Shown: positions 24,547-64,000 of the stretch, piece after piece
How positions within the stretch are numbered: position 1 is the stretch's first letter
How the letters are laid out: the number at the start of each line of letters is the position of its first letter
From: Cryptosporangium aurantiacum
GTDB lineage: Bacteria > Actinomycetota > Actinomycetes > Mycobacteriales > Cryptosporangiaceae
Reading direction: 5' to 3'
Length of the DNA: 64,000 nt
Assembly (NCBI RefSeq): GCF_900143005.1
Contig: NZ_FRCS01000001.1
Span: forward strand, 1,054,001-1,118,000
Made by a program: the position numbers and the translations under genes
The notes under the pieces: model-generated
What the model was told of the DNA's origin: nothing
Seen by the model: the letters and a program-made list of their open reading frames with translations, nothing else
Database searches by the model: none

Positions 24547-24587
24547 GCCGCTCGGCGCGGCGCCTGAGGCGCTCAGCGCGCCGCTCT

Positions 24588-24762
24588 CGCGGGCCGGTCC
24601 TGCGTTTCGCGGGCCGGTCGTGCGTTTCGCGGGCCGGTCGTGCGTTTCGCGGGCCGGTCGTGCGTTTCGCGGGCCGGTCGTGCGTTTCGCGCGCCGGTCC
24701 TGCGCTTCGCGCCGGTCCTGCGCTTCGCGCCGGTCCTGCGCTTCGCGCGGCGCTTCGCGTCG
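24588..24762. repeat. GC-rich 20-bp then 18-bp tandem repeat
   Basis: Units of 20 bases beginning at 24601, 24621, 24641, 24661 and 24681 share TGCGTTTCGCGGGCCGGTCG; the fifth varies at its end. They are preceded by a partial unit (24588-24600) and followed by 18-base units TGCGCTTCGCGCCGGTCC at 24701 and 24719 and a degenerate tail. A 20-base period breaks the reading frame, so this is unlikely to be coding. It sits between the MATE stop and a long inverted repeat. Confidence 0.85.
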
Positions 24763-24830
24763 CTAGAAAGTTGGCCACTTCTCGACGTGTCCGGGCGGGC
24801 GGACACGTCGGAGAGTGGCCAACTTTCTAG
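24763..24830. terminator. Very long inverted repeat between convergent genes, probable bidirectional terminator
   Basis: Two 30-base arms, 24763-24792 and 24801-24830, pair almost perfectly around the 8-base loop GGGCGGGC. The outer 17 bases (CTAGAAAGTTGGCCACT) and the inner 9-10 bases (GACGTGTCC) match fully; only a few bases between them differ. The right arm contains the stop codon of the Hsp70-WD40 gene. It is far longer than a normal terminator stem, so it may instead be a dispersed palindromic element that acts as one. Confidence 0.7.
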
Positions 24831-27800
24831 AGGGGCCAGACACGGGCTGTGGTGTCGTGGCTCGCGGTGACCAGGTGGCGGTTGTCGGGGGTGAACGCGA
24901 CCGCGGTCAGCGCGGACGTGTGCCCGCTGATCGGCGGGGCGAGGGCGCGGCCGGTGCTCGGGTTCCACAGCCGGGCGGTGCCGTCGACGCCCGCGGTGGC
25001 CAGCGCCCGTCCGTCCGGGCTGAACGCGACCGCGGTGACCGCGCCGGTGTGCCCGGCCAGCCGCTCGGAGACCTGACGGCCGGTGTCGGCGTTCCAGAGC
25101 CGGGCGGTGCCGTCGACGCCCGCGGTGGCCAGCAGCCGTCCGTCCCTGCTGAACGTGACCGCGTGCACCAGGCCGTGCCCGGTGAGGCTCGTCAGCTGGC
25201 GCCCAGTGGTCACGTCCCAGATGCGGATCGTCTCGTCGAAGCTGCCGGTCGCGATCCGCTGGCCGTCCGGGTGGAACGCGACCGCGCGGACGACGTCACT
25301 GTGCCCGGTGAGCGTGCCGACGGTCTCGCCGGAGCGGACGTTCCAGATCCGGACCGTGTGATCGAAGCTGCCGGTGGCGACCCGGCGGCCGTCGGGGTGG
25401 AACGCGACCGCCCGCACCATGTCGGTGTGGCCGGTGAGCGACGAGAGCTCGGTGCCTGCGGCCGGGTCCCAGATCCGAACGGTCCGGTCGTCGGCGACGC
25501 TGGCGAGGCGGGTGCCGTCCGGGCTGGACGCGAGGCCGTTGATCCGTCCGGTGTGGCCGGACATGCGCGTGATCCGGCGTCCGCCGGGCAGCTCCCAGAT
25601 CCGGAGCGTGCTGTCCGCGCCCGCGGTGGCGAGGCGGGTGCCGTCCGGGCTGATCGCGAGCGAGGTGACGGCCTCGTCGTGGCCGCGGATCTCGACCGGT
25701 TCGCCGGGTTCGAAGGTGGCCCGGATCTGCGGCGGCGCGTACGCCCGCCCGCTGACGGGCGCCGTGCCGCTGACGGGCGCCGTGCCGCTGACCGGCGCGG
25801 CGCTGACCGGCGCGGCGCTGATCGGGGTTGCGCTGATCGGGGTTGCGCTGACGGGCGCCGCGCTCACGGGGGCGGCGCTGATCGGCGCGGCGCTCACCGG
25901 GGCCGACGGCGGCGGTGCCGGCGGTCCGCTCCGTGGCGCGGGCGGCCCGGCAGGGCTCGGCGGGGCCGGCGGTCCGCTCTGCGGCGCGGGCGGCACGGCC
26001 GAAGGTGCTGATGGGGCGGCCGAAGGTGCGGATGGGGCGCTCGGCGGGGCCGGCGGTCCGCTCTGCGGCGCGGGCGGTGCGGAGGGCCCGGTCGGCGGTG
26101 CGGGTGGCGCGCTCTGGGGCGAGGGACGCGTGCTCGGTGGGGTCGCGAACGGGGCCGGGGCGGCTTCGGCGGCGCGGAAGTCCCGCTCGCCGCGCGCGAT
26201 GCCCGGCGCCGCCTGTGGCTCCGGCGCGGGAGGGAACGGCTGCCGGTGCGGCTGGTTCCAGCCGCCGTGCTGCGCCGGGCCGCCGTGCTGCGCCGGGCCG
26301 CCGTGCTGCGCCGGGCCGCCGTGCTGCGCCGGGCCGCCGTGCTGGGGCGCCCCGGACTGCGGGGCGCCGGGGTGCTGCTGCGGGCCCTGGTGCTGGGGAG
26401 CACCGGGGTGGGACTGCCCGGGGTGCTGGGGCGGGCGGTGGTGCTGTGGCGGGCCGTATCCCGGGGCTCCGTGCGGTGGTGCGGGATGCGCTGGCGCTGC
26501 GTGCGGAGGCCCGGAGTGCGGCGGCCGGGCGTGGCCAGCCTGAGGCGGGAAGGGCGGCCCGGACTGGGGCGGGAACGGCGGACCCGACTGCGGGGCCGGC
26601 GCGGGGTAACCCCCCGGACCCGGCTGCGGCCCCCGGAACGGCGGGGCCGAATGCGGCGCGGAGTGCGGTGGCGCGGAGTGCGACGCCGGAAACGGCGGCG
26701 CGGAGTGCGGTGGCGCGGAGTGCGACGCCGGAAACGGCGGCGCGGAGTGCGGTGGCGCGGAATGCGACGCCGGAAACGGCGGGGCCGAGTGCGGTGGCGC
26801 GGAGTGCGGTGGCGCGGAGTGCGACGCCTGGAACGGCGCCCCGCCGTGTGGTGCCCCGCCGTGCGGCGCCCCGGCGTGCGGCGCCCCGGCGTGTGGCGCC
26901 GCGGACGGCGGCGGCGCGTCGAAGGCCCGCACCCGCAGCGCCCCCTCGGCCACGATCAGCTCGGGCTGCTCCAGCACCGTCGCCGGCACGCCCAGCGTCC
27001 GGTGCAGCAGCGTCGCCACCATCGGGATCCGGGTCGATCCCCCGACCAGGAAGACCGCCGATAGGTCGCCGGGCGTGATCCCGGCCTCCCGCAGCACGCC
27101 CTGCACCGAAACGATCGTCCGCTCCAGCAGCGGCCGGATCAGCTGGTCGAGCTCGGCACGCGTCAGCGGCACCTCGTCGTCGATCAGCGGCACCGGGATC
27201 AGCGTCGACGCCGACGACGACAGCAGCTCCTTGGCGGCCCGCACGTCGTCCTGCAGCAGCCAGCGCGCCCGGCGTTCCGCCGCGGTCTCCGGCGCGGTCA
27301 GCGCGCGCCACGCGTCCGGGTCGCGCTTCTCGACCACCGCGCCGACGTGCTCCAGGATCGCGTGGTCGATGTCCAGCCCGCCCGCGTCCACCAGGCCGTC
27401 GGTCGCCCGAACGTCGTAGCCGGTCGAGGTCCGCCGCAGCACGGTCGCGTCGAACGTGCCACCGCCCAGGTCGTAGACCAGCGCGTTCCCGCCGACCGGT
27501 AACCGCGCGCCGTGGACCTCGGCGAACGCGGCCGCCGCCGCGACCGGCTCGGGAACCAGCCCGACCGAGTGCACCGGCCACCCGGCCGCGGCCGCGGACC
27601 GACGGAGCAGGTCGCGCCGCGCGCTGCCCCAGACCGCCGGGTGGGTGATCCGGATCTCGCCGGGAGCCGACTCGCCGGTGACCCGCCGGGTCTCGTCGGC
27701 GACCCGGCGCAGCACGGCCGAGAACAGGTCGGTGACGCCGAACTCGTTCGCGCCGAGCAGCACGATTCCGTCGTCGATGCGGCGCTTCGGGTTGGGCTCG

Positions 27801-28003
27801 AACCCCTCGGGGTGCAGCCGGGCGGTGTGCAGCGCGGCGCGTCCGACCAGCAGATCCTGGGCGGGCGTCGCGCAGACCGCGGACGGCAACTGCGGCTGAC
27901 CGTCCACGAGCAGCGGGTTGACACGGCCATCGGGCCTGGCGAGGACCGCCACCGTGTTCGATGTCCCGAAGTCGATCCCTAGTCGTGTCCCTACAGCCGC
28001 CAC
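24827..28003 (-). CDS. Hsp70-family ATPase fused to a proline-rich linker and seven WD40 repeats
   Basis: 1058 residues. Residues 1 to about 365 are an Hsp70/actin-fold ATPase: phosphate 1 motif GIDFGTSNTVAVL, phosphate 2 ALVYDLGGGTFDATVL, adenosine motif VFLVGGSTRIPMVATLL. The normal Hsp70 substrate-binding beta domain is absent. A Pro/Ala/His/Ser-rich linker of about 400 residues follows, with internal repeats of GPAQHG and of APPFPASHSAPPHS. Residues about 770-1058 form seven WD40 repeats (GH...IW), enough for one closed propeller. Such fusions suggest ATP-controlled scaffolding rather than chaperone work; partners are unknown. Start GTG 28003. The stop lies in the long hairpin. Confidence 0.88.
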   Translation of the reverse strand: MAAVGTRLGIDFGTSNTVAVLARPDGRVNPLLVDGQPQLPSAVCATPAQDLLVGRAALHTARLHPEGFEPNPKRRIDDGIVLLGANEFGVTDLFSAVLRRVADETRRVTGESAPGEIRITHPAVWGSARRDLLRRSAAAAGWPVHSVGLVPEPVAAAAAFAEVHGARLPVGGNALVYDLGGGTFDATVLRRTSTGYDVRATDGLVDAGGLDIDHAILEHVGAVVEKRDPDAWRALTAPETAAERRARWLLQDDVRAAKELLSSSASTLIPVPLIDDEVPLTRAELDQLIRPLLERTIVSVQGVLREAGITPGDLSAVFLVGGSTRIPMVATLLHRTLGVPATVLEQPELIVAEGALRVRAFDAPPPSAAPHAGAPHAGAPHGGAPHGGAPFQASHSAPPHSAPPHSAPPFPASHSAPPHSAPPFPASHSAPPHSAPPFPASHSAPPHSAPHSAPPFRGPQPGPGGYPAPAPQSGPPFPPQSGPPFPPQAGHARPPHSGPPHAAPAHPAPPHGAPGYGPPQHHRPPQHPGQSHPGAPQHQGPQQHPGAPQSGAPQHGGPAQHGGPAQHGGPAQHGGPAQHGGWNQPHRQPFPPAPEPQAAPGIARGERDFRAAEAAPAPFATPPSTRPSPQSAPPAPPTGPSAPPAPQSGPPAPPSAPSAPSAAPSAPSAVPPAPQSGPPAPPSPAGPPAPRSGPPAPPPSAPVSAAPISAAPVSAAPVSATPISATPISAAPVSAAPVSGTAPVSGTAPVSGRAYAPPQIRATFEPGEPVEIRGHDEAVTSLAISPDGTRLATAGADSTLRIWELPGGRRITRMSGHTGRINGLASSPDGTRLASVADDRTVRIWDPAAGTELSSLTGHTDMVRAVAFHPDGRRVATGSFDHTVRIWNVRSGETVGTLTGHSDVVRAVAFHPDGQRIATGSFDETIRIWDVTTGRQLTSLTGHGLVHAVTFSRDGRLLATAGVDGTARLWNADTGRQVSERLAGHTGAVTAVAFSPDGRALATAGVDGTARLWNPSTGRALAPPISGHTSALTAVAFTPDNRHLVTASHDTTARVWPL

Positions 28004-49221: not shown

Positions 49222-50235
49222 GTGCCGGAGCGGATCGCGGTGCTGGGCGCGGGCCTGATCGGCCTCTACATCGGCGGTGCACTGCACGCCGCCGGGGCCG
49301 ACGTGAGCCTCGTCGGTCGCGCGCGGATGCGCCCGTACACCGAGTCGACGCTGGTGCTCACCGACCTCGACGGCGGCCGGACGGAGGTCCCGGCGGGCAC
49401 GCTGGAGTACTCCCTCGACCCGACCGCGCTGTCCGACGCCGGGCTGGTGCTGGTGACCGTGAAGAGCGCGGACACCGCCGCCGCGGCGGAGATCGTCGCG
49501 GCGAACGCACCGCAGCGGCCGGTCGTGCTGAGCCTGCAGAACGGCGTCGGCAACCTCGACGTGCTCCAGACGCTCCTGCCGGGCTACGACGTGGTGGCCG
49601 GCATGGTGCCGTTCAACGTCGCCAACCCGGAACCGGGCCGGCTCCATCGCGCCAGCGAGGGTGGGCTGATGGCGGCCCGGACCTCGGTGCTCGACCCCTG
49701 GCTGCCGGTGTTCGCGGCCGCCGGGTTGCCGGTGACGTTGCGGGCCGACTTCGTGCCGGTGCAGTGGGGCAAACTCCTGCTCAACCTCAACAACGCGGTG
49801 AACGCGCTGTCCGGTGTGCCGCTACGGGCGGAACTGTCCCGCCGCGCCTACCGGCAGTCGCTCGCGCTGCTCGTCGCCGAGGCGCTGCGGGTGCTGCGCG
49901 CCGCGGGCATCCAGCCCGCGCGGGTCACGAAGGTGCCGCCGCACGTCCTGCCGACGCTGTTGCGCGTGCCGGACGCGGTGTTCACCCGGTTGGCGGGCGC
50001 GATGCTGCGGATCGATCCGGAGGCGCGGTCCTCGATGCGGGAGGACCTCGCGGCCGGTCGCCGTACCGAGGTGGATCACCTCAACGGTGCGGTGGTGCGA
50101 CTGGCGCAGCGTGCCGGCGTGCGGGCACCGGTCAACCAGGCCGTCGTCGACCTCATCCATGCCGCCGAGCACGGCCCACCCCCGTCATTCACCGGCGACG
50201 AGCTCTACGCGCGACTCTCGGCCGCGGCCCGCTGA
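49222..50235 (+). CDS. Ketopantoate reductase (2-dehydropantoate 2-reductase) family protein
   Basis: 337 residues. NADP-binding start AVLGAGLIGLYIGGALHAAG, then VKSADTAAAAEIV, LSLQNGVGNLDVL and the catalytic-lysine region FVPVQWGKLLLNLNNAVNAL; the C-terminal helical domain ends SSMREDLAAGRRTEVDHLNGAVV. These are family hallmarks. Several paralogues in actinobacteria act on other 2-oxo acids, so panE is not asserted. Start GTG 49222 with GGAGGG at 49211-49216. The 245 bases upstream (48977-49221) hold no gene; they should contain its promoter. Confidence 0.87.
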   Translation: MPERIAVLGAGLIGLYIGGALHAAGADVSLVGRARMRPYTESTLVLTDLDGGRTEVPAGTLEYSLDPTALSDAGLVLVTVKSADTAAAAEIVAANAPQRPVVLSLQNGVGNLDVLQTLLPGYDVVAGMVPFNVANPEPGRLHRASEGGLMAARTSVLDPWLPVFAAAGLPVTLRADFVPVQWGKLLLNLNNAVNALSGVPLRAELSRRAYRQSLALLVAEALRVLRAAGIQPARVTKVPPHVLPTLLRVPDAVFTRLAGAMLRIDPEARSSMREDLAAGRRTEVDHLNGAVVRLAQRAGVRAPVNQAVVDLIHAAEHGPPPSFTGDELYARLSAAAR

Positions 50236-50246
50236 CGGCGTCAGCG
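50230..50246. terminator. Small hairpin covering both convergent stop codons
   Basis: CGCTGAC-GGC-GTCAGCG, a perfect 7-bp stem with 3-base loop, spans the stop of the ketopantoate-reductase-like gene and the stop of the convergent MBL gene. Possible bidirectional terminator. Confidence 0.4.
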
Positions 50247-51353
50247 GTAGACCGCGAGCTCCGATGCCGGCGGGACATGGGTTACCGACCAGGCGTTGTC
50301 GCTGATGGGCGTTCTAGCACGCACCTGCCCGCTTCTACCCCACGGGTCTTGGACGTTCTTCCCCAGTTGGTTGATCAGAGCCGCGGTGGATCGCACGCCA
50401 CGTGGCCTGGGAACTTTTCGCGGCGATGCGGTGATATACGAGCGCGGAGCGAGATCCAGCAGCCTGACGATGTCGGACGGTGCCGGGCGTTTGGTGGCGC
50501 CACCTCGATACGGAGTCATCAGCGCGAGAGGACCGGGCACGACCAAGTCCGTCCACACTTGCCGCCAGTGAGCGTTCGGCGCTCCGTGATGGGGAACCTT
50601 GATCACCTCGGCCTTGGTCGGCGGCCGGTGCCAGTCGAGCACCGCTTGCCACCCGCAGGCCGCTGGGCCGTTGAGTAAGTCGGCGCCGAGAAGAACGCAG
50701 CGGTCACCGACCTCGATCCAGAGGGCTACTGCCAACTCGTTAGGATCAGCGGCCGGCGGCCGGGGAGTTTGTCCGATGACTAGTGCCCCGTTCGCCAACT
50801 TTTGCAGCGATCGTGTTATCGCTTCTTGGGAGGGAGAAAGCGCGAGGACACTGGCACGGTCGTTCCCCACCGGTATCGAGAGCAACGGCAACTGCTCGGT
50901 AGCCCTGACCAGTGGCCGTCGTTGCCCTTTCGTCCGTCCACGCGCCCGCACGATATCGAATATCCGCCGGTATTCCTTGTAAACCCCCACGCGAACGATC
51001 TCTTCAACGCGTTTGTCTGTCGCGGCGAGAGCATAAAACTCTTCGCTGCTGACAGCGGCCGAACACACGAGCGATGCGGATGGGCAGGCCTCGACGACGG
51101 CAGCCATTCCTGCGATATGGTCGTCGTGCGCATGGGTGCCAACGATCAGCTGTACAGAGTTCCCGGGGTCCACCCCGATGTTTCGCAGATAGTCCAAAGG
51201 CGGAATTCGGCCGTCGAACTGATCTCTGCACGAATCGACGATCATCCACTGGCCATCGCCCAGATGAACCAGGATCGACTCTCCCTTGCCCGGCCCGAAG
51301 ATGGAAACTTCGAGCTCGTCGGGGGCCGGCGCTTTACTCCCAGAGGTCGGCAA
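50241..51353 (-). CDS. ComEC/Rec2-like MBL-fold hydrolase, cassette gene 3
   Basis: About 370 residues. MBL pattern of the ComEC C-terminal type: GKGESILVHLGDGQWMIVDSC, metal site GTHAHDDHIAG (HxHxDH), CVLLGADLLNG aspartate, and KVPHHGAPNAHW. No signal peptide or membrane helix, so it is a soluble hydrolase, possibly of phosphodiester or nucleotide substrates. TTG 51353 is the only start downstream of the previous gene's body; it overlaps that gene's end by 20 bases. GC content and codon use are clearly lower than in neighbouring genes. Last of three overlapping genes. Confidence 0.75.
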   Translation of the reverse strand: MPTSGSKAPAPDELEVSIFGPGKGESILVHLGDGQWMIVDSCRDQFDGRIPPLDYLRNIGVDPGNSVQLIVGTHAHDDHIAGMAAVVEACPSASLVCSAAVSSEEFYALAATDKRVEEIVRVGVYKEYRRIFDIVRARGRTKGQRRPLVRATEQLPLLSIPVGNDRASVLALSPSQEAITRSLQKLANGALVIGQTPRPPAADPNELAVALWIEVGDRCVLLGADLLNGPAACGWQAVLDWHRPPTKAEVIKVPHHGAPNAHWRQVWTDLVVPGPLALMTPYRGGATKRPAPSDIVRLLDLAPRSYITASPRKVPRPRGVRSTAALINQLGKNVQDPWGRSGQVRARTPISDNAWSVTHVPPASELAVYR

Positions 51354-51903
51354 GATCGTCGCGTAGCCTCTCGGCGTCGTTCTTGACTGCACTGGCTTCC
51401 GCTTCGGTCCAACGCCCGAAACGTCGGACGCGTATGCTCGACGTCCGCTCGCGTCGTCCACGGTCGCTGACCGTTCGAACCGTGAGGTAGAACAGCGTGC
51501 CAGGCGACAGGGCATCGGAGTCGGCAGCGTCGAGCAGGTCGAGGTCGAACTCCGCGGTGACCGTCGGCTCTTCGTCGTCGATAGGCGTCAGCTCTGCGAT
51601 GAAGAATTGGTCACCGACCTCGAGCACCCTGCCGTTCCATTTCGCGAGCCCGACGACGCGTGAGGTGCCGACGTGGGCGTGGGATTCGCCGTCGATCGTG
51701 CTCGTGGGATCACCGAGCGGGTGCTCGGCGCCGGACACGAGCCGCGCTGGAGTGTTGCGTGCCGTCGGAGACAGCGCTCGTGGCAGCGTCGGTCGGCGGC
51801 GAAGCCCGAGGGAGTACGGCCTCGGCCTGTCGCGTTGGGTCGTCTCTCCGGGATGGAGGTTGTCGTTGAGGCCTCCGGTGGAGGTCGTATCGATGTTGTT
51901 CAT
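51334..51903 (-). CDS. Unknown cassette protein 2
   Basis: 189 residues, not recognised. The first 75 residues are polar and proline-rich, probably disordered; residues about 80-150 alternate strands (RVVGLAKWNGRVLEVGDQFFIAELTPIDDE, LFYLTVRTVSD), suggesting a small beta fold; the end is a charged helix (AVKNDAERLRDDLADLW). The start overlaps the stop of the upstream cassette gene by four bases (ATGA), and its end overlaps the MBL gene, so the three products are made together in near-equal amounts. Confidence 0.65.
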   Translation of the reverse strand: MNNIDTTSTGGLNDNLHPGETTQRDRPRPYSLGLRRRPTLPRALSPTARNTPARLVSGAEHPLGDPTSTIDGESHAHVGTSRVVGLAKWNGRVLEVGDQFFIAELTPIDDEEPTVTAEFDLDLLDAADSDALSPGTLFYLTVRTVSDRGRRERTSSIRVRRFGRWTEAEASAVKNDAERLRDDLADLWE

Positions 51904-52607
51904 CCGGATTCTCCGACCAACTGGATGATCCGGTCGGACTCTGCGCGGCTCGGCGACCAGCGGTCGTTCAGAATCTCGATGGCGATCGAAGCCATACCGG
52001 TACGAGGTTCCACATTCTGCGGTAGGGTAACGTCGGCGCGGGACATCGGAGGGTCGTCGACCCGGGTGAAGTCGTAATGGTCATTGATGGCGACAAACAC
52101 TCCGTAGGGTATCACCGTAGATGGCTCAACTGTGACCGTGACGGATCCGCCGTAATTGCCGGCGCGGCCTCCGATGATGGAGACCGACCGTGTTGCGGGA
52201 AATTTCAATGCGGAGGACCAGACCTTTTTGGGGGCGAGCCGATCGCCGATGGCATGCCACCGCTCTTCGTTCTCGGCGTCGAAGTGAGCGATGCGGTTGA
52301 TTCCCAGTGCGGACAGCGGAGTGTGGGGGAGTGCGCGAAGAATTCCGATAGCGACGTCTCTCATTCGCTCGGTCTCTTCGGCGACCTCAGTGCGCAGTTG
52401 GATGCTGTCGGGAAGCACTTGGAGGTTCAACCAGTCGACCGAGAAGATGGCAAAGTCGCGGCTGATTCCGTCCAGGACGGCCGCTTCGAACTCGGTCTCG
52501 CCGATGAGCCCCACGTTTTGCAGCCAGAGCGGCGAGAAAATAGCCGGGTTGAAGGCGCCTTTGACCACTATTGCCGCGTTGTCGACGGCGATCCGTGGGA
52601 GCGGCAT
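51900..52607 (-). CDS. Unknown cassette protein 1
   Basis: 235 residues, not assigned. Two stretches look like conserved-family motifs: GAFNPAIFSPLWLQ near the N terminus and LPHTPLSALGINRIAHF in the middle, followed by WHAIGDRLAPKKVW. The C-terminal part is beta-rich (VSIIGGRAGNYGGSVTVTVEPS). I believe relatives with such motifs are scattered in distant bacteria, but cannot confirm. Start ATG 52607 is chosen because AGGAGG lies just upstream; GTG 52640 is possible. First gene of the lower-GC cassette. Confidence 0.65.
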   Translation of the reverse strand: MPLPRIAVDNAAIVVKGAFNPAIFSPLWLQNVGLIGETEFEAAVLDGISRDFAIFSVDWLNLQVLPDSIQLRTEVAEETERMRDVAIGILRALPHTPLSALGINRIAHFDAENEERWHAIGDRLAPKKVWSSALKFPATRSVSIIGGRAGNYGGSVTVTVEPSTVIPYGVFVAINDHYDFTRVDDPPMSRADVTLPQNVEPRTGMASIAIEILNDRWSPSRAESDRIIQLVGESG

Positions 52608-53300: not shown

Positions 53301-54077
53301 ATGGCGACATCGGTGGACGACCTCGGACTGACCGTGACGGTGCCGGACGAGGTGCGCCGGGTGGTCAGCCTGGTGCCGTCGCTCACCGAGACCGTCGCGG
53401 CGAGCCGCCGGGACCTGCTGGCCGGTGTCACCGACTGGTGTTCGCACCCCGCGGACCTGGACGTGCCCCGCATCGGCGGTACCAAGAACCCGAACGTCGA
53501 CGCCGTGATCGCGCTCCGGCCCGACGTCGTGCTGGCGAACCAGGAGGAGAACCGCGCACCGGACCTGGATGCGCTGCGCGCGGCCGGCGTCCCGGTGTAC
53601 GTGACCGACATCCGGACGGTCCCGGCCGCGATCGAATCGCTGGAGCGGGTGCTGGCGCTCCTCGGAGTATCCCGTCCGGCGTGGCTGGACCGGGCCGCGG
53701 ACGAGTGGCGCGGGGCCGCCCCGCCGCGGGAACGGGTGATCGTGCCGATCTGGCGGCGGCCGTGGATGGCGCTGGGCTCCGACACGTTCGCGGGTGACCT
53801 GGTCGAGCGGCTGGGGTTCCGGAACGTGCTCGGTGACAGCCCGGAGCGCTATCCGCGGTTCGACCCGGACGCGCTGGCGCCGGTCGACCTGGTTCTGCTG
53901 CCCGACGAGCCGTACGCGTTCACTCCGGACGACGGCCCGGAGGCGTTCGGCGGGATGCCGTTCGCCTGCGTCGACGGCCGCTCGCTGACCTGGTACGGCC
54001 CGAGCCTCGACGGCGCACGCACCCGCCTGCGCGCCACGATCGACGCTCAGCGCACCCGGACGAACTCGTCGGAGTAG
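53301..54077 (+). CDS. Helical-backbone metal receptor-like protein (BtuF/FhuD fold) without signal peptide
   Basis: 258 residues. Class III binding-protein pattern: RVVSLVPSLTETV, GGTKNPNVDAVIALRPDVVLANQEENRAPDLDAL, then a C-terminal domain with ALGSDTFAGDLVERLGFRNVLGD. Such proteins usually bind corrinoids or siderophores outside the membrane, but this one has neither a signal peptide nor a lipobox, so it would act in the cytoplasm. Closeness to the B12-dependent IcmF gene hints at cobalamin handling; that is inference. Start ATG 53301. Overlaps the convergent Hsp70-like gene by 31 bases. Confidence 0.8.
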   Translation: MATSVDDLGLTVTVPDEVRRVVSLVPSLTETVAASRRDLLAGVTDWCSHPADLDVPRIGGTKNPNVDAVIALRPDVVLANQEENRAPDLDALRAAGVPVYVTDIRTVPAAIESLERVLALLGVSRPAWLDRAADEWRGAAPPRERVIVPIWRRPWMALGSDTFAGDLVERLGFRNVLGDSPERYPRFDPDALAPVDLVLLPDEPYAFTPDDGPEAFGGMPFACVDGRSLTWYGPSLDGARTRLRATIDAQRTRTNSSE

Positions 54078-55753
54078 AAGTCGCCGCCGCTGGTGAGCGT
54101 GTCGCCGATGCAGGCGTACCGGTCCGGCTCCGGGTTCAGTTGGAGCGCACCGCCGTTGTTGTAGACGCCGTCGCGGTACAGCGACCACCGCCCGTTGACG
54201 CTCTGCGTGGTTCCGAACAGCGTGCCGTTCGCCGTCCGATACCGCAGCGTCGAGCGGCCGCTCAGCCGGTACACCCACTCGTTGCCGCGGTAGGTACCAC
54301 GCAGCGGCGGATCGTCGTACGTCACGGTGAGGACGCCGTCCGGACCGTATTTCAGCGTGCGGCCTGCGGTGCCGCGGAGGACGACGTCTACGCCGTCGAT
54401 CTTCACGGTCACGGTGGCCTGCACCCGCCGCCAGGAGCCGACCAGGCACGGATCGACGCCGGGGGCGTAGCTCGGCGTCGGGCTGTTCGCCGTCACCGGG
54501 CGGATGGACGTGCTCGCGGACGGCGTCGGGGCGGCCTTCGCGTCGCGGTCGTCGTCGCCGATCCGGGCCAGGCCGGCCACGGCCAGTACGGAGAGCACCA
54601 CGGCGGCCGCACCGAATACGGCCAGGCGGCGACGTGCCGGGCGGCCGGAACGATCGGCGGGCGGCGTCGGCGGAGCGGGAGACGCCACCGGCCCGGCGCT
54701 CTCGTCGGCGGTCACCGCGCCTTCGGCGACCGCGATCTCCGGCTGGTCGACGAGCGTCGGGACGACGTCGAACCGCTGGTGGAGTGCGGTGGCCACGGCC
54801 GGGATGCGGCTCGAGCCGCCAGTCAGGTAGATCGCGGTGGGCGACACGTCGGCGGTGCGCAGTGCGGCCCGGCAGGCGGTCAGCGTCCGTTCGACGATCG
54901 GTGCCACCAGCGCCTCGAACTGCTCCCGCCCGAGGACCTCGTCCCGGTCGAACAGCGGCAGGTGGACGTACGTCGAGGTGGCCCGGGACAGCACTTCCTT
55001 GGCGGTCCGGACGTTGTCCCAGAGCTGGCGGCGGTACCGCTGGTCGGACGTCGTCTCGGGGGACGTGAGCCGCGCCCAGAGCGTCGCGTCCTGCCCGATT
55101 GCGACCGTTCCCAGGTTCGCGATGATCGCGGCGTCCACGTCGAGCCCACCGCAGTCGGGTAAGCCCTCACTGGCCAGCACCTCGTAGCCGGTCGGGGTGC
55201 GCCGCACGACCGACGCGTCGAACGTTCCCGCGCCGAAGTCGTAGACCAGCGCGGACTCGCCGGGCGCGAGCGTGGCCGTCGCCTCCGCGAAATGGTGCGC
55301 GGCGGCGACCGGCTCGGGCAGCAGGCGGACGTTCGGCAGGACCTCGGACGCGGCGGTCAGCAGCGTCCCGCGGCGAGTGTTCGCCCACGCCGCGGGGTAT
55401 GTCAGCACGGCCTCGTCCGGAGGCTCGCCGAGCGCTTGCGCGGCCTCGTCGGCGACGCGGCGCAGCACCGCGGCGATCAGGTCGGACACCGCGATCTCGT
55501 GGTCGCCGAGCAGCACGGTCCGGTCGTCGACGCAGCGTTTCGGGTGCGGCTCGAACGCTCCGGGAGCGGTCAGACCGGCGTGCTGCGCGTCGCGTCCGGT
55601 CAATAGCCGGCCGTCCGGGCCGGCGTGCACGGCCGAGGGGAGCAGCGGTGAGCCGTCGAACAGCAGGAGGCGTGGTTCACGTCCGGAGCGCCGCAGCACC
55701 GCGACGGTGTGGGCGGTGCCGAAGTCGATCCCGAGGCGGGCCCGGCGCGTCAT
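54047..55753 (-). CDS. Membrane-anchored Hsp70-family ATPase with extracytoplasmic C-terminal domain
   Basis: 568 residues. Hsp70 ATPase domain 1 to about 350: GIDFGTAHTVAVLRR, ALVYDFGAGTFDASVV, IYLTGGSSRIPAVATAL. The peptide-binding beta domain is replaced by a short Pro-rich linker, one membrane helix (about 375-397, LAVFGAAAVVLSVLAVAGLA), a Thr/Pro/Ser-rich stalk and a beta-rich domain of about 130 residues (LVGSWRRVQATVTVKIDGVDV) with two cysteines that could pair outside the cell. The ATPase domain resembles that of the Hsp70-WD40 protein at 24.8-28 kb. Start ATG 55753. Confidence 0.87.
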   Translation of the reverse strand: MTRRARLGIDFGTAHTVAVLRRSGREPRLLLFDGSPLLPSAVHAGPDGRLLTGRDAQHAGLTAPGAFEPHPKRCVDDRTVLLGDHEIAVSDLIAAVLRRVADEAAQALGEPPDEAVLTYPAAWANTRRGTLLTAASEVLPNVRLLPEPVAAAHHFAEATATLAPGESALVYDFGAGTFDASVVRRTPTGYEVLASEGLPDCGGLDVDAAIIANLGTVAIGQDATLWARLTSPETTSDQRYRRQLWDNVRTAKEVLSRATSTYVHLPLFDRDEVLGREQFEALVAPIVERTLTACRAALRTADVSPTAIYLTGGSSRIPAVATALHQRFDVVPTLVDQPEIAVAEGAVTADESAGPVASPAPPTPPADRSGRPARRRLAVFGAAAVVLSVLAVAGLARIGDDDRDAKAAPTPSASTSIRPVTANSPTPSYAPGVDPCLVGSWRRVQATVTVKIDGVDVVLRGTAGRTLKYGPDGVLTVTYDDPPLRGTYRGNEWVYRLSGRSTLRYRTANGTLFGTTQSVNGRWSLYRDGVYNNGGALQLNPEPDRYACIGDTLTSGGDFYSDEFVRVR

Positions 55754-59222: not shown

Positions 59223-60512
59223 ATGGTGGATGAGTCGGCGGAACTGTTAGCGTTCGGTGCTGAACTGCGGCGCCGGCGCACGGCAGTCGGCTGGTCCCTG
59301 GAGCAACTGAGTCGGATCGCGTGTTACAGCAAAGGACATTTGAGCAAGGTCGAAAGAGGATCCAAGGCGCCCAGTATCGCCTTGGCCAGACGTTGCGACC
59401 ACGTTCTCGACGCCGGGGGAGAGCTCGCTCGGTTGGTTTCTCGCCCAGGTAGAACCGCCGCCGCGCCGCACGATGATCAACCAGGCGAGGTGTGGCTCAT
59501 GGAGCTGGGCGACGATGGTCGCGGAACATTTCAATCCCTCAATCGACGGTCGCTCTTGGCGGGCGGAGCGGCGAGCCTTCTCACGTGGCGAATCGCGCCC
59601 CCGGTCGATCCCGGTGCCGCACGACTCGCCGCACTTCCGGCGTTTCAGCAGATACTCGATAACCTTCGAATGTTGGGGCACGGCGCCCATCCGTCGGCGC
59701 TGATCCCACTCCTGGTATCCGGGCTCTACGTACTGCGCGAGGTCGCGGGCGGCTCCCCCTCCACGCACCGCGTCGACGTCGTGCGGCTGGCCGCGCGCTA
59801 CGCCGAGTACACCGGCTGGATGGCGCAGGAGAACGGCGACGAGGGCGCCGCGCTCTGGTGGACCCGGTACGCGGTGAGCCTGTCCCGCTCCGGCGAGGAC
59901 CACGAGTTGGAGGCGTACGCGCTGGTGCGGCAGGCCGAGCTCGCGCTGTACCGCCGGGATTCGATCTCGACGATCGACCTCGCGGAGAAGGCCCAACGCG
60001 AGACGTCCGACCCCTACGTGGCCTGCCTCGCCGCGCAGCGGGAGGCCCAGGGCAGGGCGCTGGACGGCGACGAGTTGGGGTGCCGGCGCGCGCTGGACCG
60101 CGCCGCGTCGTTCGCCGCGAAGGCGCAGAGCAACGGCGATCGGCTGTTCGGGAGCGGATCCCTGGCCGATCCGATCGCGTTCGCCACCGGGTGGAGCCTG
60201 CACGACCTCGGCCAGGACGAGGCGAGCATCGAGTTGCTGACCAGGGAACTCGAGAACATGCCCGACCACGCGCAGCGAATGCGCGCCCGGTGCGCCGCGC
60301 GGCTCGCCCTCGCGCTGGCGAGTCGGCAGCGATTGGACGAAGCGTGCGCGGTGATCGGGCCGATGCTCGGTGTGGTCCGAGTCGTCGACTCCGCGACGGT
60401 CAGGGCGGATTTGCGAGAATTGGCTTCGACGCTTCGCCGCTGGCGTAGTCATCGGGATGTCCGGCCGCTCATTCCGCACCTCGCCGCCGCACTCGAGAGC
60501 CGAATTGTCTGA
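59223..60512 (+). CDS. XRE-family regulator with TPR-like C-terminal region
   Basis: 429 residues. HTH at about 10-65: LRRRRTAVGWSLEQLSRIACYSKGHLSKVERGSKAPSIALARRCDHVL. Residues about 95-110 are hydrophobic, and residues 120-429 are repeated helical pairs (ALVRQAELALYRRDSISTIDLAEKAQRE, AARLALALASRQRLDEACAVIGPM) like TPR units. Such Streptomyces-type regulators often sit with conflict or signalling operons and read the state of downstream partners. It lies 167 bases before the TIR gene on the same strand. Start ATG 59223 or GTG 59226. The 144 bases upstream carry its presumed promoter. Confidence 0.87.
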   Translation: MVDESAELLAFGAELRRRRTAVGWSLEQLSRIACYSKGHLSKVERGSKAPSIALARRCDHVLDAGGELARLVSRPGRTAAAPHDDQPGEVWLMELGDDGRGTFQSLNRRSLLAGGAASLLTWRIAPPVDPGAARLAALPAFQQILDNLRMLGHGAHPSALIPLLVSGLYVLREVAGGSPSTHRVDVVRLAARYAEYTGWMAQENGDEGAALWWTRYAVSLSRSGEDHELEAYALVRQAELALYRRDSISTIDLAEKAQRETSDPYVACLAAQREAQGRALDGDELGCRRALDRAASFAAKAQSNGDRLFGSGSLADPIAFATGWSLHDLGQDEASIELLTRELENMPDHAQRMRARCAARLALALASRQRLDEACAVIGPMLGVVRVVDSATVRADLRELASTLRRWRSHRDVRPLIPHLAAALESRIV

Positions 60513-60679
60513 ATCGCGACTCAGCTTTCCTGAGTAGGTGGCTGGTAGGCCTTTCGGTGGAGGCCGCTGAATATCCGGCTGTTTCCCGAAACGGACCCGG
60601 GAAACGACTTTTCAGCCGCCCTCGCGCGCCGCAGTGTGGGGTTCGCCCATCGCCGCGTTGTTCGCAGGAGGTAGTCCGG

Positions 60680-61291
60680 GTGTCCGGAATTTTCGTCAAC
60701 TACCGCACCGAAGACGCCTCCTACGCGTCCTGTCTTCTGGATTGCGTATTCACTCGGGAGTTCGGGGTCTCGGAGGTGTTCTGGGACAGCCGGGCCCTGG
60801 AAATAGGGAAGGATTTCCGTCCGGAACTCAACCTCCGGCTCCATACGTGCGACGTCTTTCTGGTGCTGATCGGGCCGCGCTGGCTCGACCGGGACGACGA
60901 GCGTGGAATCCGGCTGATCGACCGGCCCGAGGACTTCGTCCGGATGGAGATCCAGCAGTCGCTCCTCCGCGGCGTCCCGGTGATCCCGGTGCTGCTCGAC
61001 GGCGGGTCACTTCCGCATCCGGACGCGCTACCCGCAGACATCGCGGCCCTCACCGATCGCCAGTACACCCATCTGCGGGTGCGCTCGTACCGGCAGGACC
61101 TGGACGAGCTGGTGGCCAAGATCCGGCAGATCCTGCGCGGCGGGCCGTACGACACGGCGCCGGGTCCGCGGCAGGCACGCCGGGACGAGTCGCACGCCAC
61201 CACCCGATATCACCGGACAGCGGTCGCCAACGGTGACCGCGCCTCGGCCGCGTACTACGAGAACGCACCGGATCGGGCCGATCGGGAGTGA
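60680..61291 (+). CDS. TIR-domain protein
   Basis: 203 residues. TIR box 1 is SGIFVNYRTEDASYASCLLD, box 2 region VFLVLIGPRWLDRDDERGIR, and a candidate catalytic Glu90 lies in DFVRMEIQQSLLRGVPVIPVLLD, the position used by NAD-cleaving TIR enzymes. The remainder (about 145-203) is helical and then disordered. Bacterial TIR proteins either cleave NAD or make cyclic ADP-ribose signals; here it is a single-domain protein between a regulator and a STAND-like protein. Start GTG 60680 with AGGAGG at 60667-60672. GTGA overlap (61288-61291) with the next gene. Confidence 0.85.
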   Translation: MSGIFVNYRTEDASYASCLLDCVFTREFGVSEVFWDSRALEIGKDFRPELNLRLHTCDVFLVLIGPRWLDRDDERGIRLIDRPEDFVRMEIQQSLLRGVPVIPVLLDGGSLPHPDALPADIAALTDRQYTHLRVRSYRQDLDELVAKIRQILRGGPYDTAPGPRQARRDESHATTRYHRTAVANGDRASAAYYENAPDRADRE

Positions 61292-63765
61292 GCGTCCAGA
61301 ACGAGCACACCGACCAGAACGACCGGTCGGCCGACGACCCGGCGTCCCCGCAGGCCCCGGAGCCCCGGGCTGAGCCGGAGGCACCGGAAGCGCCGGGGGC
61401 CGGCCACGCGAAAATCGCCCCGGCGCCGGCGGGGCAGACGGGTCAGGCACCGCTGCACGAGGGGGGCAGCGGTGCCGATCCGGCGGGCCCGGCCACGGCT
61501 CGGCCGAACGGTCGGCGAGCGCCCGAGGAGAAGGGAGATCGTCGCCCGTCCGTCGCCCGGGGTGGGCGCCCGCTCGAGCTGGAGGCGCCCAAACCCGCAG
61601 ATCCGCCGGCGGGAGACGGCACCGGCCGTCCGCGGCCGCCGTCCGAGGACGCGCAGAACAACACCCAGTTCGACGAGTACTCCGCCGAGGAGAAGGCCCG
61701 CAAGTTCGGCCGCGAGCAGGTGTTCGACCGCTCCGCGTCCGCATCCGGCCCGGACGGCAAGGCGTTCTACTTCGAGCACTTCACCCAGCACGTGACGGTC
61801 GGGGACCGGCGGATCCGGGTCAGCCGGGCGCGGATCCGCGACGCCGCGCGGGACGCCTGCCGGGAGACGTACGTCGCGGTCGACGGGATCGACCAGATGG
61901 CCGACACGCTCGTCCGGCGGCGTCTGGTGATCCTCTCCGGACCATCGGGAACCGGTCGCCACGCGACCGCGGTCTACCTGCTCAGCCGGGCTCCGCAGAG
62001 CGGATGGCTCGGGCGCCTGGAGACCGAGCCGGACGAACTCGGTGACGTGATCGGCCGGAACGGCGGGCCCGAGTCGGGGGCGACGCCGATCGAGAAGGAC
62101 GACCGGCTCGTCGTCGACTTGCTGGGGCGCTCGCCGACCGACGGCCAGTGGGCGGCGCTCGCCGAGGAGGCCTACCAGAAGAGCGCGTTCGTGGTGGTCG
62201 TCGCGCCGCCGACGCCGACGTCCGGGGATGCCTATCCGCGTGAGTTCTGCCGTCCGCACGGGCGGCCGGACCCGGCCGCGGTCCTCCGGCGCAACCTGGC
62301 GTACCAGCTGACGAAGCACCGCAGCGCGTGCGACCGCGAGGACTGCACCGACGAGCGGCTCGGCGCGATCGTTGACGCCCGGTGCGCGGTTCCGGAGGTC
62401 GATCGTTACCTCCGGATCGCCCGCTCGCTGGACGAGGTGGCCGGGCTGGCCGCGGTGCTGGCCGATCACGTGCACACCGCGGACGCCGAGGTACCGGGGC
62501 TGCTCGGCAGCTGGAAGGACCGCCTGCGCACCCGCGCCGAGGAACTCCTCGCGGCCTCCAGCGGCCCCTCCGAGAAGGAGGAGCGGCTGCTGCTGCGCAG
62601 GCAGGTGTTCCGCATCGCGTACGCGGTGTTCCACGGTCACCCATTCAGCGACGTGTTCTCGGCGGGGGACTGGCTGATGGCGGCCGTCACCCAGCAGGCA
62701 CCCAACCGGGTGCGGCTGGCCGAAGTGCCCAGGCTCATCGTCGACGGCAAGGTCCGCGAGCTGCTCGGCACCGGCATGTCCGCGGTCGACGAGGCCGCAG
62801 TGAACGGCACCGACGGGCCTCGGCGCGCGCAGCTCGTCGACGGCGACCTCGTCGTCTCCATTCTGGACGTCGCGTGGCACGACTACCACACGCTGCGCGG
62901 CCCGCTGCTGGACTGGCTCCAGATCCTCGCGCTCCACCCCCAGGTGCGGGTGCGGGTGCGTGCGGCGCAGACCGCCGGCCTGCTCGCGCGGTTCGACTTC
63001 GACGAGGTGTACGGCCAGCTCCTCAGGGGTTGGGCCGAGGGGCCGGCATTCACCCGGGCCGCCGCCGCGGACGCGCTGGACATCGCCCACCGCAGCGGGT
63101 TCCTGGCTGCGCGCGTCCGTCGGCAGGTCAGAGACTGGGCGCTGAGCCCGAAGGCTCAGCTGCAGGACAGCGCGGCCCGCGCGTACGGCAGCGTCACCGG
63201 CGTCGCCGACCCGGCCGAGGCCATCCGCGCGCTGGCGGACCTCGGGACCCGTCGGGCGCTGGCGGACTGGAGCTCGATCGCGCTGGCGATGGTGCAGCTG
63301 TCGGACGCGGGCGCGCCGACGCAGGTGCTGGACGCGCTGACCGAGTGGATCCGGTCGGGCGAACCGACGCTCCGCGACCACGCGGTCCGGGCGATGCTCC
63401 AGCTCACCCGGTTGGCGGCGGGGGAGAACAGCCGATCGCCGCTGGTGCGCGGGCTCTCGGACCGCCGCGACACGGTGATCCGGCTCTGGCGTCGGGCGCT
63501 GGCCGACGAACGGACGTCGCGGCGCGCGTGGGACCAGTTCCGGCAGTGGCTCCGGTCGGCCGAACGGCGGCCGGAGGACGCCGCCGGGATCGAAGCGCTG
63601 GCCGTCGACATCCTCGACCACCCGTTGGACGCGCGGGCGCGCTTCTGGCTGACGCTGTGGGCCGAGCGGCACCCGGAAGCGTCGATCTACGACCGCATCA
63701 GATCAGCGCTCCGGCGGCCAGGAGCCGGCGGCGCCTCGTTCGGAGAGGACCTGCTCGATGGCTAG
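61288..63765 (+). CDS. STAND-like protein with degenerate P-loop and helical repeats
   Basis: 825 residues. About 140 disordered Pro/Ala/Glu-rich residues, then a P-loop-like site at LVILSGPSGTGRHATAVY in which the usual Lys-Ser/Thr is Arg224-His225, followed by FVVVVAPPTPTSGDAYP as a possible Walker B strand. The C-terminal 400 residues are helical repeats of HEAT/armadillo-like look (VRVRAAQTAGLLARFDFDEVYGQLL, LRDHAVRAMLQLTRLA). Without the lysine, ATP hydrolysis is doubtful, though nucleotide binding may remain. GTGA coupling to the TIR gene upstream and an 8-base overlap with the next gene show one operon. Confidence 0.7.
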   Translation: MSVQNEHTDQNDRSADDPASPQAPEPRAEPEAPEAPGAGHAKIAPAPAGQTGQAPLHEGGSGADPAGPATARPNGRRAPEEKGDRRPSVARGGRPLELEAPKPADPPAGDGTGRPRPPSEDAQNNTQFDEYSAEEKARKFGREQVFDRSASASGPDGKAFYFEHFTQHVTVGDRRIRVSRARIRDAARDACRETYVAVDGIDQMADTLVRRRLVILSGPSGTGRHATAVYLLSRAPQSGWLGRLETEPDELGDVIGRNGGPESGATPIEKDDRLVVDLLGRSPTDGQWAALAEEAYQKSAFVVVVAPPTPTSGDAYPREFCRPHGRPDPAAVLRRNLAYQLTKHRSACDREDCTDERLGAIVDARCAVPEVDRYLRIARSLDEVAGLAAVLADHVHTADAEVPGLLGSWKDRLRTRAEELLAASSGPSEKEERLLLRRQVFRIAYAVFHGHPFSDVFSAGDWLMAAVTQQAPNRVRLAEVPRLIVDGKVRELLGTGMSAVDEAAVNGTDGPRRAQLVDGDLVVSILDVAWHDYHTLRGPLLDWLQILALHPQVRVRVRAAQTAGLLARFDFDEVYGQLLRGWAEGPAFTRAAAADALDIAHRSGFLAARVRRQVRDWALSPKAQLQDSAARAYGSVTGVADPAEAIRALADLGTRRALADWSSIALAMVQLSDAGAPTQVLDALTEWIRSGEPTLRDHAVRAMLQLTRLAAGENSRSPLVRGLSDRRDTVIRLWRRALADERTSRRAWDQFRQWLRSAERRPEDAAGIEALAVDILDHPLDARARFWLTLWAERHPEASIYDRIRSALRRPGAGGASFGEDLLDG

Positions 63766-64000
63766 TCGGAGCGGATTTCTGCAGTGGTGGCGCCAGTGGT
63801 TCCCGAAGCGGGAGGCGGCGCAGACCACGCCGGATACGGTCTGCGATTCGCCGATGACGACGTTGCCGATGCTGGTCCCGGCGCGCGGCGAGGTGTTCGA
63901 CTTCCACCTCTACGTCCGTCTGCACTGGTCGAGCCCGACGCACTCGCTCCACCAGCTGGAGAACCTGAGCCACGCGCGCAGCCACACGGCCCTGGCCACG
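63758..64000 (+). CDS. Unknown protein of the TIR operon, 5' part
   Basis: About 81 residues before the window ends. ATG 63758 lies within the end of the previous gene. The visible part opens with a Trp/Phe-rich basic segment (SGFLQWWRQWFPKREA) and continues with LPMLVPARGEVFDFHLYVRLHW, a strand-rich stretch. I do not recognise the family. By position it is the fourth component of the XRE-TIR-STAND-like operon. Confidence 0.6.
   Translation, partial: MASRSGFLQWWRQWFPKREAAQTTPDTVCDSPMTTLPMLVPARGEVFDFHLYVRLHWSSPTHSLHQLENLSHARSHTALAT

Follow-up and report, generated by a model that had tools for sequence, protein, structure and literature searches.

The right-hand end of the window (the whole 64,000-nt stretch of Cryptosporangium aurantiacum DNA analyzed here, G000:C1:1054001-1118000 of a 9.58 Mb genome in 44 contigs) carries an operon in which a TIR protein is encoded next to a receptor-like protein of 825 aa. 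The window edge fell within this operon, and the DNA beyond 64000 was fetched and read. Six genes were found in the order REG-TIR-AAA/HEAT-SPFH-vWA/OmpA-MEM (Table 1), the last of which ended at 67223 and was followed by a gene on the opposite strand. The same order was also found in Micromonospora, Streptomyces and Symbioplanes, which argued that the operon was not a chance array of open reading frames.

The original prediction, made from the window alone, named the first four reading frames, all of which were present as described, and expected at least one more overlapping gene after the 825-aa gene. That fourth gene overlaps it by 8 bases (63758-63765), was completed beyond the window, and was followed by two further co-directional genes. 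The TIR gene starts with GTG, preceded by AGGAGGT, and its stop overlaps the start of the 825-aa gene in the sequence GTGA (61288-61291). This overlap had been taken as a translational fusion. The overlap stands, but the two products are separate proteins, so 'translationally coupled' is the apt term.

Table 1. Features of the operon. Positions past 64000 are extrapolated window coordinates; an L008 position is the window position minus 54000.
Feature	Position	Strand	Evidence or remark
REG: XRE helix-turn-helix plus TPR-like regulator, NsdA family, 429 aa	59223..60512	+	PF13560 3e-12; NF053720 9e-43
Candidate operator palindrome GTTTCCCG-N9-CGGGAAAC	60581..60605	no strand	99 bp upstream of TIR start
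TIR protein, 203 aa	60680..61291	+	PF13676 3e-9; SARM1 profile match; tail motif residues 177-195
Receptor-like protein, 825 aa: AAA+/STAND-like module plus C-terminal HEAT repeats	61288..63765	+	profile and AlphaFold2 fold matches
SPFH/Band-7-like protein, 296 aa in full	63758..64648 (L008:9758-10648), in window to 64000	+	homologue-model fold
vWA/OmpA lipoprotein, 410 aa	64645-65877 (L008:10645-11877)	co-directional	PF00691 4.7e-8; lipobox VAGC; DVSNS
MEM, multi-transmembrane protein, 444 aa	65889-67223 (L008:11889-13223)	co-directional	three transmembrane segments over hydropathy cut-off

The TIR protein belonged to the TIR_2 family. A profile built from nine relatives matched SARM1 at 3e-10, and placed the Glu of DFVRMEI on the Glu of DWVHKEI in SARM1, the residue of its catalytic site (E642). 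This catalytic-type Glu in helix C was kept in all 16 TIRs (16/16) from cassette loci, in agreement with the candidate NADase glutamate proposed earlier. The TIR protein carries the Glu feature of NAD-cleaving TIR enzymes and is predicted from its sequence to cleave NAD+.

In the 825-aa protein, an N-terminal region that is long and of low complexity, and that includes a short motif at residues 146-164 (see below), precedes an AAA+/STAND-like module and HEAT repeats. The profile of its family matched RFC AAA+ subunits at 4.5e-5 and the alphaRep HEAT proteins at 0.004. The AlphaFold2 model (pLDDT 77.5) gave an AAA+-like part and then HEAT repeats, and its fold matches were Clp AAA+ modules (root-mean-square deviation about 5 over about 210 residues) and many HEAT proteins. 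The Pfam scan of the protein gave only nSTAND3 (E=0.004, below the cut-off) and HEAT_2, with no NB-ARC or NACHT match. The STAND-like character given to it by the original prediction was thus a weak sequence likeness, and by profile and fold the module is AAA+-like. The P-loop is GPSGTGRHA, in which the Walker A Lys is replaced by Arg (GxxGxGR). This Arg was invariant or nearly so among the relatives, which makes the altered P-loop a conserved property of the family and not decay. Both the altered P-loop and the helical repeats, noticed at first in this one protein, were common to the whole family.

The fourth protein had no family match in Pfam, PADLOC or NCBIfam, and Band_7 matched neither the window gene nor the long versions. 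The sequence search against the PDB also gave no match, and only the fold search was informative. A homologue from Micromonospora orduensis (L109), about 43% identical to the window protein, was modelled with a pLDDT of 78. Its best Foldseek matches were all SPFH proteins (7vhq at 1.7e-4, HflK/C, prohibitin, erlin, vault shoulder and stomatin; Z about 8). This pointed, with a moderate match, to an SPFH/Band-7-like fold. The protein would share the fold of the superfamily (HflK/C, prohibitin, stomatin, erlin), but it lacks the sequence-family match, and in place of a clear transmembrane segment it has a short, Trp-rich, basic and amphipathic-looking N-terminal helix, which recurred across relatives.

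The 410-aa protein combined a lipobox, a MIDAS-like vWA motif (DVSNS) and a C-terminal OmpA domain, and its gene co-occurred with MEM across loci. The single 'further component' placed after the receptor in the original prediction does exist; it is to be corrected to an SPFH-like protein plus a vWA/OmpA lipoprotein plus a multi-transmembrane protein.

Relatives of the 825-aa protein were found in 52/397 genomes sampled from the order and 35/395 from the class, with Micromonospora, Streptomyces, Actinoplanes, Paractinoplanes, Symbioplanes and Gandjariella among the genera. The 15 kb around 40 relatives, together with 17 named loci, were dereplicated to 55 actinobacterial loci. Genes in these were called by our own script and labelled by hidden Markov models (HMMs) built from the window proteins. 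The AAA/HEAT receptor and the SPFH-like gene were present together in 55/55 loci. The gene preceding the receptor encoded a TIR protein in 15 loci and a class III cyclase-like protein in 38.

The profile of the cyclase-like proteins matched class III cyclases (3mr7 at 2.7e-6; a mycobacterial cyclase at 3.9e-6). The two metal Asp residues were kept in 35/38 and 38/38, and the transition-state Arg in 38/38. Since the transition-state Asn is lacking (see below), these slot proteins (A4 / L072-L125) form a group of class III cyclases that is either unusual or inactive.

The partners changed with the enzyme. Crp/Fnr regulators (cNMP_binding, 1e-19) were present in 36/38 cyclase loci and 0/15 TIR loci, and NsdA-type regulators in 12/15 TIR loci and 0/38 cyclase loci. 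PycTM (PF18967, 1e-16) was frequent in cyclase loci and was not found in the TIR version of the window. The PADLOC candidate PDC-M50A (1e-24 to 1e-34) was present in five TIR loci. No locus combined the TIR partner set with the cyclase partner set. The receptor tree required two or more switches of the enzyme slot, and a grouping of all TIR loci in one clade was rejected (p-AU 1.5e-5). The vWA/OmpA and MEM genes lay downstream in 20 loci of both enzyme kinds, and were missing from 35/55.

Several side observations touch these partners. PDC-M50A (for example L070:3675-4067 and L110:14171-14590) may serve the TIR cassette as a membrane effector or as an accessory; a search of the host genome for it gave no match, and neither did the control. 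In one TIR clade (L089:2111-6091, L098, L101), PP2C, protein kinase and vWA genes replaced vWA/OmpA and MEM. In L107:1-9224, PycTM came after the receptor-SPFH core, together with a gene for a membrane vWA protein and a tubulin-like gene, which recalls modules reported for GAP1-N2 systems. This layout suggests that the core is plugged into several downstream machines.

A Gly/Asn/Ala-rich motif of about 20 residues recurred in both proteins of a locus: in the enzyme within the C-terminal ~45 residues, and in the receptor N-terminal to the P-loop. Examples are NFIGGNAVVGTQVGRDNI / NFIGGDATIGTQVGRDNI (L087), GPTSFGGPAAGRDVNYH / GPTSLGGPSAGRDVNIY (L078) and GAAASGSNASAVYNN / GAAASGPNARAYYHD (L070). 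The mean score of the own pairs was 51.4, against 32.1 +/- 1.5 for within-type permuted pairings (5000 permutations, none as high; p=2e-4). The permutation retains shared enzyme-receptor ancestry, and so the test shows matching within loci, not independent events. Motif pairs with z>3 were obtained for 28/38 cyclases and 4/15 TIRs. The same pairing test gave no motif signal in the regulator, SPFH, vWA/OmpA or MEM proteins.

Motifs taken from L069-L071 only were used to scan 21,239 19-mers of 59 nearby proteins. The top two were residues 146-164 of the receptor (FDRSASASGPDGKAFYFEH; score 57) and residues 177-195 of the TIR protein (YHRTAVANGDRASAAYYEN; score 36), with the next best at 20, and the reverse scan found the same two places. 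With an HMM from receptor motifs alone, the TIR tail ranked first and the window receptor fell outside the top five, while the ungapped scan ranked the receptor first. The tail of the enzyme and the N-terminus of the receptor, encoded by adjacent genes, thus carry a locus-matched motif, which may possibly be of amyloid character. Both this motif and the exchange of TIR and cyclase lay beyond the view of the original prediction.

REG matched the XRE helix-turn-helix family of Pfam and, above the cut-off, the NsdA-family TPR-like regulators, as expected from the XRE/TPR regulator predicted upstream of TIR. The palindrome between REG and TIR was present in a single copy in the 9.58 Mb genome, and 0 were expected in window shuffles. 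In the congener G002, it was kept exactly at the same place amid otherwise diverged intergenic DNA, and with cassette proteins only 46-61% identical to those of the window. We took it as a candidate operator on the basis of this sequence pattern. It was conserved in one congener only and was not present in the other TIR loci, and an operator shared by the whole family was therefore unsupported. A scan for sigma-70 promoters came back empty; such a scan is uninformative in a high-GC actinobacterium.

The cassette site itself was variable among congeners. In G001 and G003, the upstream IcmF flank (88% and 82% identical) was followed directly by the gene beyond the cassette, and all six cassette genes and the adjacent MCP gene were missing, leaving the site empty. 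In G002, the cassette was at the same place. There, IcmF, MCP and two further flanking genes were 85-90% identical to their counterparts, and a flanking 316-aa transmembrane gene 66%. The cassette has diverged well beyond most flanking genes. A compact version (L138) was found on a 616 kb plasmid of Streptomyces angustmyceticus, where it is annotated just as a helix-turn-helix regulator, TIR, OmpA and hypothetical proteins.

With moderate confidence, we interpreted the cassette as one version, with TIR in the enzyme slot, of a modular signalling system of filamentous/soil actinobacteria that pairs a receptor with an enzyme; its most probable role would be that of an immune (anti-invader) or severe-stress alarm. 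Gene content, conserved residues, enzyme exchange, matched motifs, the SPFH and AAA+HEAT folds and the patchy presence were computed; from these, we infer the biochemistry of the following steps. Sensing of an invader or of damage would fall to the HEAT repeats of the 825-aa protein; the cue would reach them directly or be passed on from the envelope through the wall-anchored vWA/OmpA lipoprotein and MEM. The AAA/STAND-like module, with its degenerate Walker A, may be a binding or oligomerizing switch and not an ordinary ATPase. Clustering of the receptor would expose its N-terminal motif, which would recruit the matching motif in the TIR tail and bring about a TIR assembly (homotypic, possibly amyloid-type). 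The assembled TIR would then cleave NAD+, resulting in NAD loss and/or an ADP-ribose-type signal. The SPFH-like protein may be the scaffold for the receptor/TIR assembly at the membrane, and REG would control the operon, possibly via the palindrome before TIR. In this view, each version of the cassette would have a regulator that suits its enzyme.

The presence in sister loci of a cyclase-like enzyme together with Crp/Fnr regulators, and often PycTM, is expected if the slot supplies a nucleotide signal. Defence was favoured by the patchiness, the empty sites, the fast divergence and the copy on a plasmid, and also by the Pycsar and PDC parts that accompany the cassette. A further-reaching version is tentative, and we consider it clearly less probable. 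It holds that the cassette represents a new class of actinobacterial innate-immune machine. In such a machine, a catalytically degenerate AAA/HEAT receptor would activate whichever enzyme is plugged in, a TIR or a cyclase, by means of a motif specific to the locus (possibly amyloid). This would take place on a membrane platform of the SPFH protein that is connected with the wall-anchored vWA/OmpA lipoprotein; enzyme, messenger receptor and motif would be exchanged as a set.

Several results weigh against the alarm interpretation. The scores of the Clp-type AAA+ fold were middling (Z about 8). In a plain shuffle test, the window's own motif pair scored weakly (z 0.3, p 0.37), and it stood out only with the motifs of relatives. 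The transition-state Asn was present in 0/38 cyclase-like proteins, mostly replaced by Ala, which makes 'signal-making' unsure for them. The co-variation of partners rests on two independent switches and cannot reach significance (independent pairs, n=2). No cassette was found in phage records. Finally, the NsdA-type regulator and the extracytoplasmic vWA/OmpA lipoprotein fit developmental or envelope-stress signalling equally.

The envelope and regulator parts indeed leave room for envelope-stress or developmental signalling with no immunity, in which vWA/OmpA and MEM would sense the wall, the SPFH protein would organize membrane domains, and the enzyme output would act on transcription through NsdA/Crp. 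NsdA of Streptomyces, after which the regulator family is named, has a developmental role. Transcription regulators were also the most constant partners, and the extracytoplasmic vWA/OmpA and the transmembrane genes are co-directional in the operon. On the other hand, a developmental pathway of the housekeeping kind would not usually be patchy, with empty sites, nor so strongly diverged compared with most of its flanks, carried on a plasmid, or subject to exchange of its enzymes and downstream modules, and vWA/OmpA with MEM, the proposed wall sensors, are lacking in most loci. We consider this explanation unlikely on balance, and yet the strongest of the alternatives.

The TIR protein could instead be a non-enzymatic scaffold or adaptor of the protein-protein kind, with the motif pairing merely holding a constitutive complex. 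For some bacterial TIRs, a mode of action through interaction has been proposed, and the tail motif does pair with the receptor motif. However, the Glu at the SARM1 catalytic position persisted in very diverged TIRs, and the alternative occupant of the slot is a further nucleotide-enzyme fold, in which both metal Asp residues are retained. This makes a scaffold improbable. Slightly more improbable still is a module of the toxin-antitoxin-like or abortive kind, whose 825-aa protein would just keep TIR inhibited until lost. The overlapping genes and tight coupling are consistent with it, but the partner is large and multi-domain, is always accompanied by the SPFH gene, and serves cyclases equally. 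Least probable and disfavoured is a published-type MoxR-vWA/iSTAND ternary conflict system with its MoxR and vWA-effector genes encoded elsewhere: an inactive STAND-like component with TIR or cyclase domains is its published theme (PMC7159879), but its signalling domains are fused, in contrast to the cassette, where separate genes encode them and a motif makes the connection.

If the alarm interpretation is right, one cassette would unite NLR-like receptors, motif-templated enzyme recruitment and nucleotide second messengers, themes that are usually separate. The slot swap makes two ideas testable: that one receptor core drives two chemically different alarms, and that the tail motif alone sets the pairing. 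The cassette also gives a function-rich context to the PADLOC candidate PDC-M50A and to PycTM, and adds an SPFH-like scaffold overlooked by sequence libraries.

Elsewhere in the window, a 20-bp tandem repeat of about 8 copies (24587-24747; 95% identical) lies in the gap before a 1041-aa gene (24827-27952), which has an Hsp70-like start (GIDFGTAHTVAVL...) and low-complexity and repeat regions. This N-terminus and that of a diverged relative at 54047-55753 look like Hsp70/DnaK-type ATPases. Roughly 2.4 kb at 50300-52600 is without a called gene, and GC is below the surroundings (0.65 at 50001-52000).

A literature search of open-access full text gave no description of the cassette, and no fitting named system was found, in agreement with the original prediction; MoxR, ThsA and a canonical NLR NTPase were all absent. 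The cassette resembles Thoeris in its TIR enzyme with a catalytic Glu as signal generator, but no ThsA was present in the operon or its neighbours, and the best Thoeris model matched far below the cut-off. With Pycsar, the cyclase-type sister loci share a PycTM effector beside the class III cyclase-like gene. They add separate Crp/Fnr regulators, the AAA/HEAT receptor and the SPFH partner, and the window version has a TIR and not a pyrimidine cyclase; two sister cyclase-like proteins scanned matched no PADLOC model.

Some cassette relatives carry PP2C-kinase-vWA or tubulin plus vWA modules like those of the GAP1-N2 GTPase-centric systems (PMC7159879). Such modules are absent from the window's cassette, the receptor and the SPFH protein match no GAP1 family, and no Pfam match to a GAP1-N2 protein or GTPase was found among the operon proteins scanned.

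Of the original prediction, the layout of regulator, enzyme, STAND-like receptor and further component was borne out and is widely conserved; the MoxR and the cytoplasmic vWA-effector of the NTP-dependent conflict systems to which it was likened are absent from the operon. An inactive STAND-type component with a TIR or cNMP cyclase is the theme of the MoxR-vWA/iSTAND (VMAP) ternary systems, where Band-7 and OmpA/vWA modules also occur, but iSTAND systems are almost entirely absent from actinobacteria (PMC7159879). No MoxR AAA+ gene was recognized in the operon to 67223 or in L109, L110, L115 and L138. Moreover, the vWA protein of the cassette is a lipoprotein with a lipobox and a C-terminal OmpA domain, not a cytoplasmic vWA with a C-terminal effector; the signalling domain is not N-terminally fused, and the third component differs. 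Membership in this group was rejected, as it was for Thoeris, Pycsar and GAP1-N2, because parts that define each system are missing.

Closest in logic are the bacterial amyloid-signalling (BASS) effector/NLR pairs (reviewed in PMC7889193; detection in PMC8086366 and PMC12261475). In these pairs, a matching motif lies at the effector C-terminus and the NLR N-terminus, and TIR is reported as a minor effector (PMC7889193). BASS and the cassette have in common adjacent or overlapping genes, a short motif at the effector C-terminus and the receptor N-terminus, and filamentous actinobacteria as hosts. The cassette differs in that its receptor is degenerate AAA/STAND-like plus HEAT, without an NB-ARC/NACHT match, that its slot also takes cyclase-like proteins, and that the SPFH and envelope genes belong to it. 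By this analogy, the cassette would be a receptor/effector pair of the NLR-like kind whose enzyme can be exchanged and which is extended by SPFH and envelope components.
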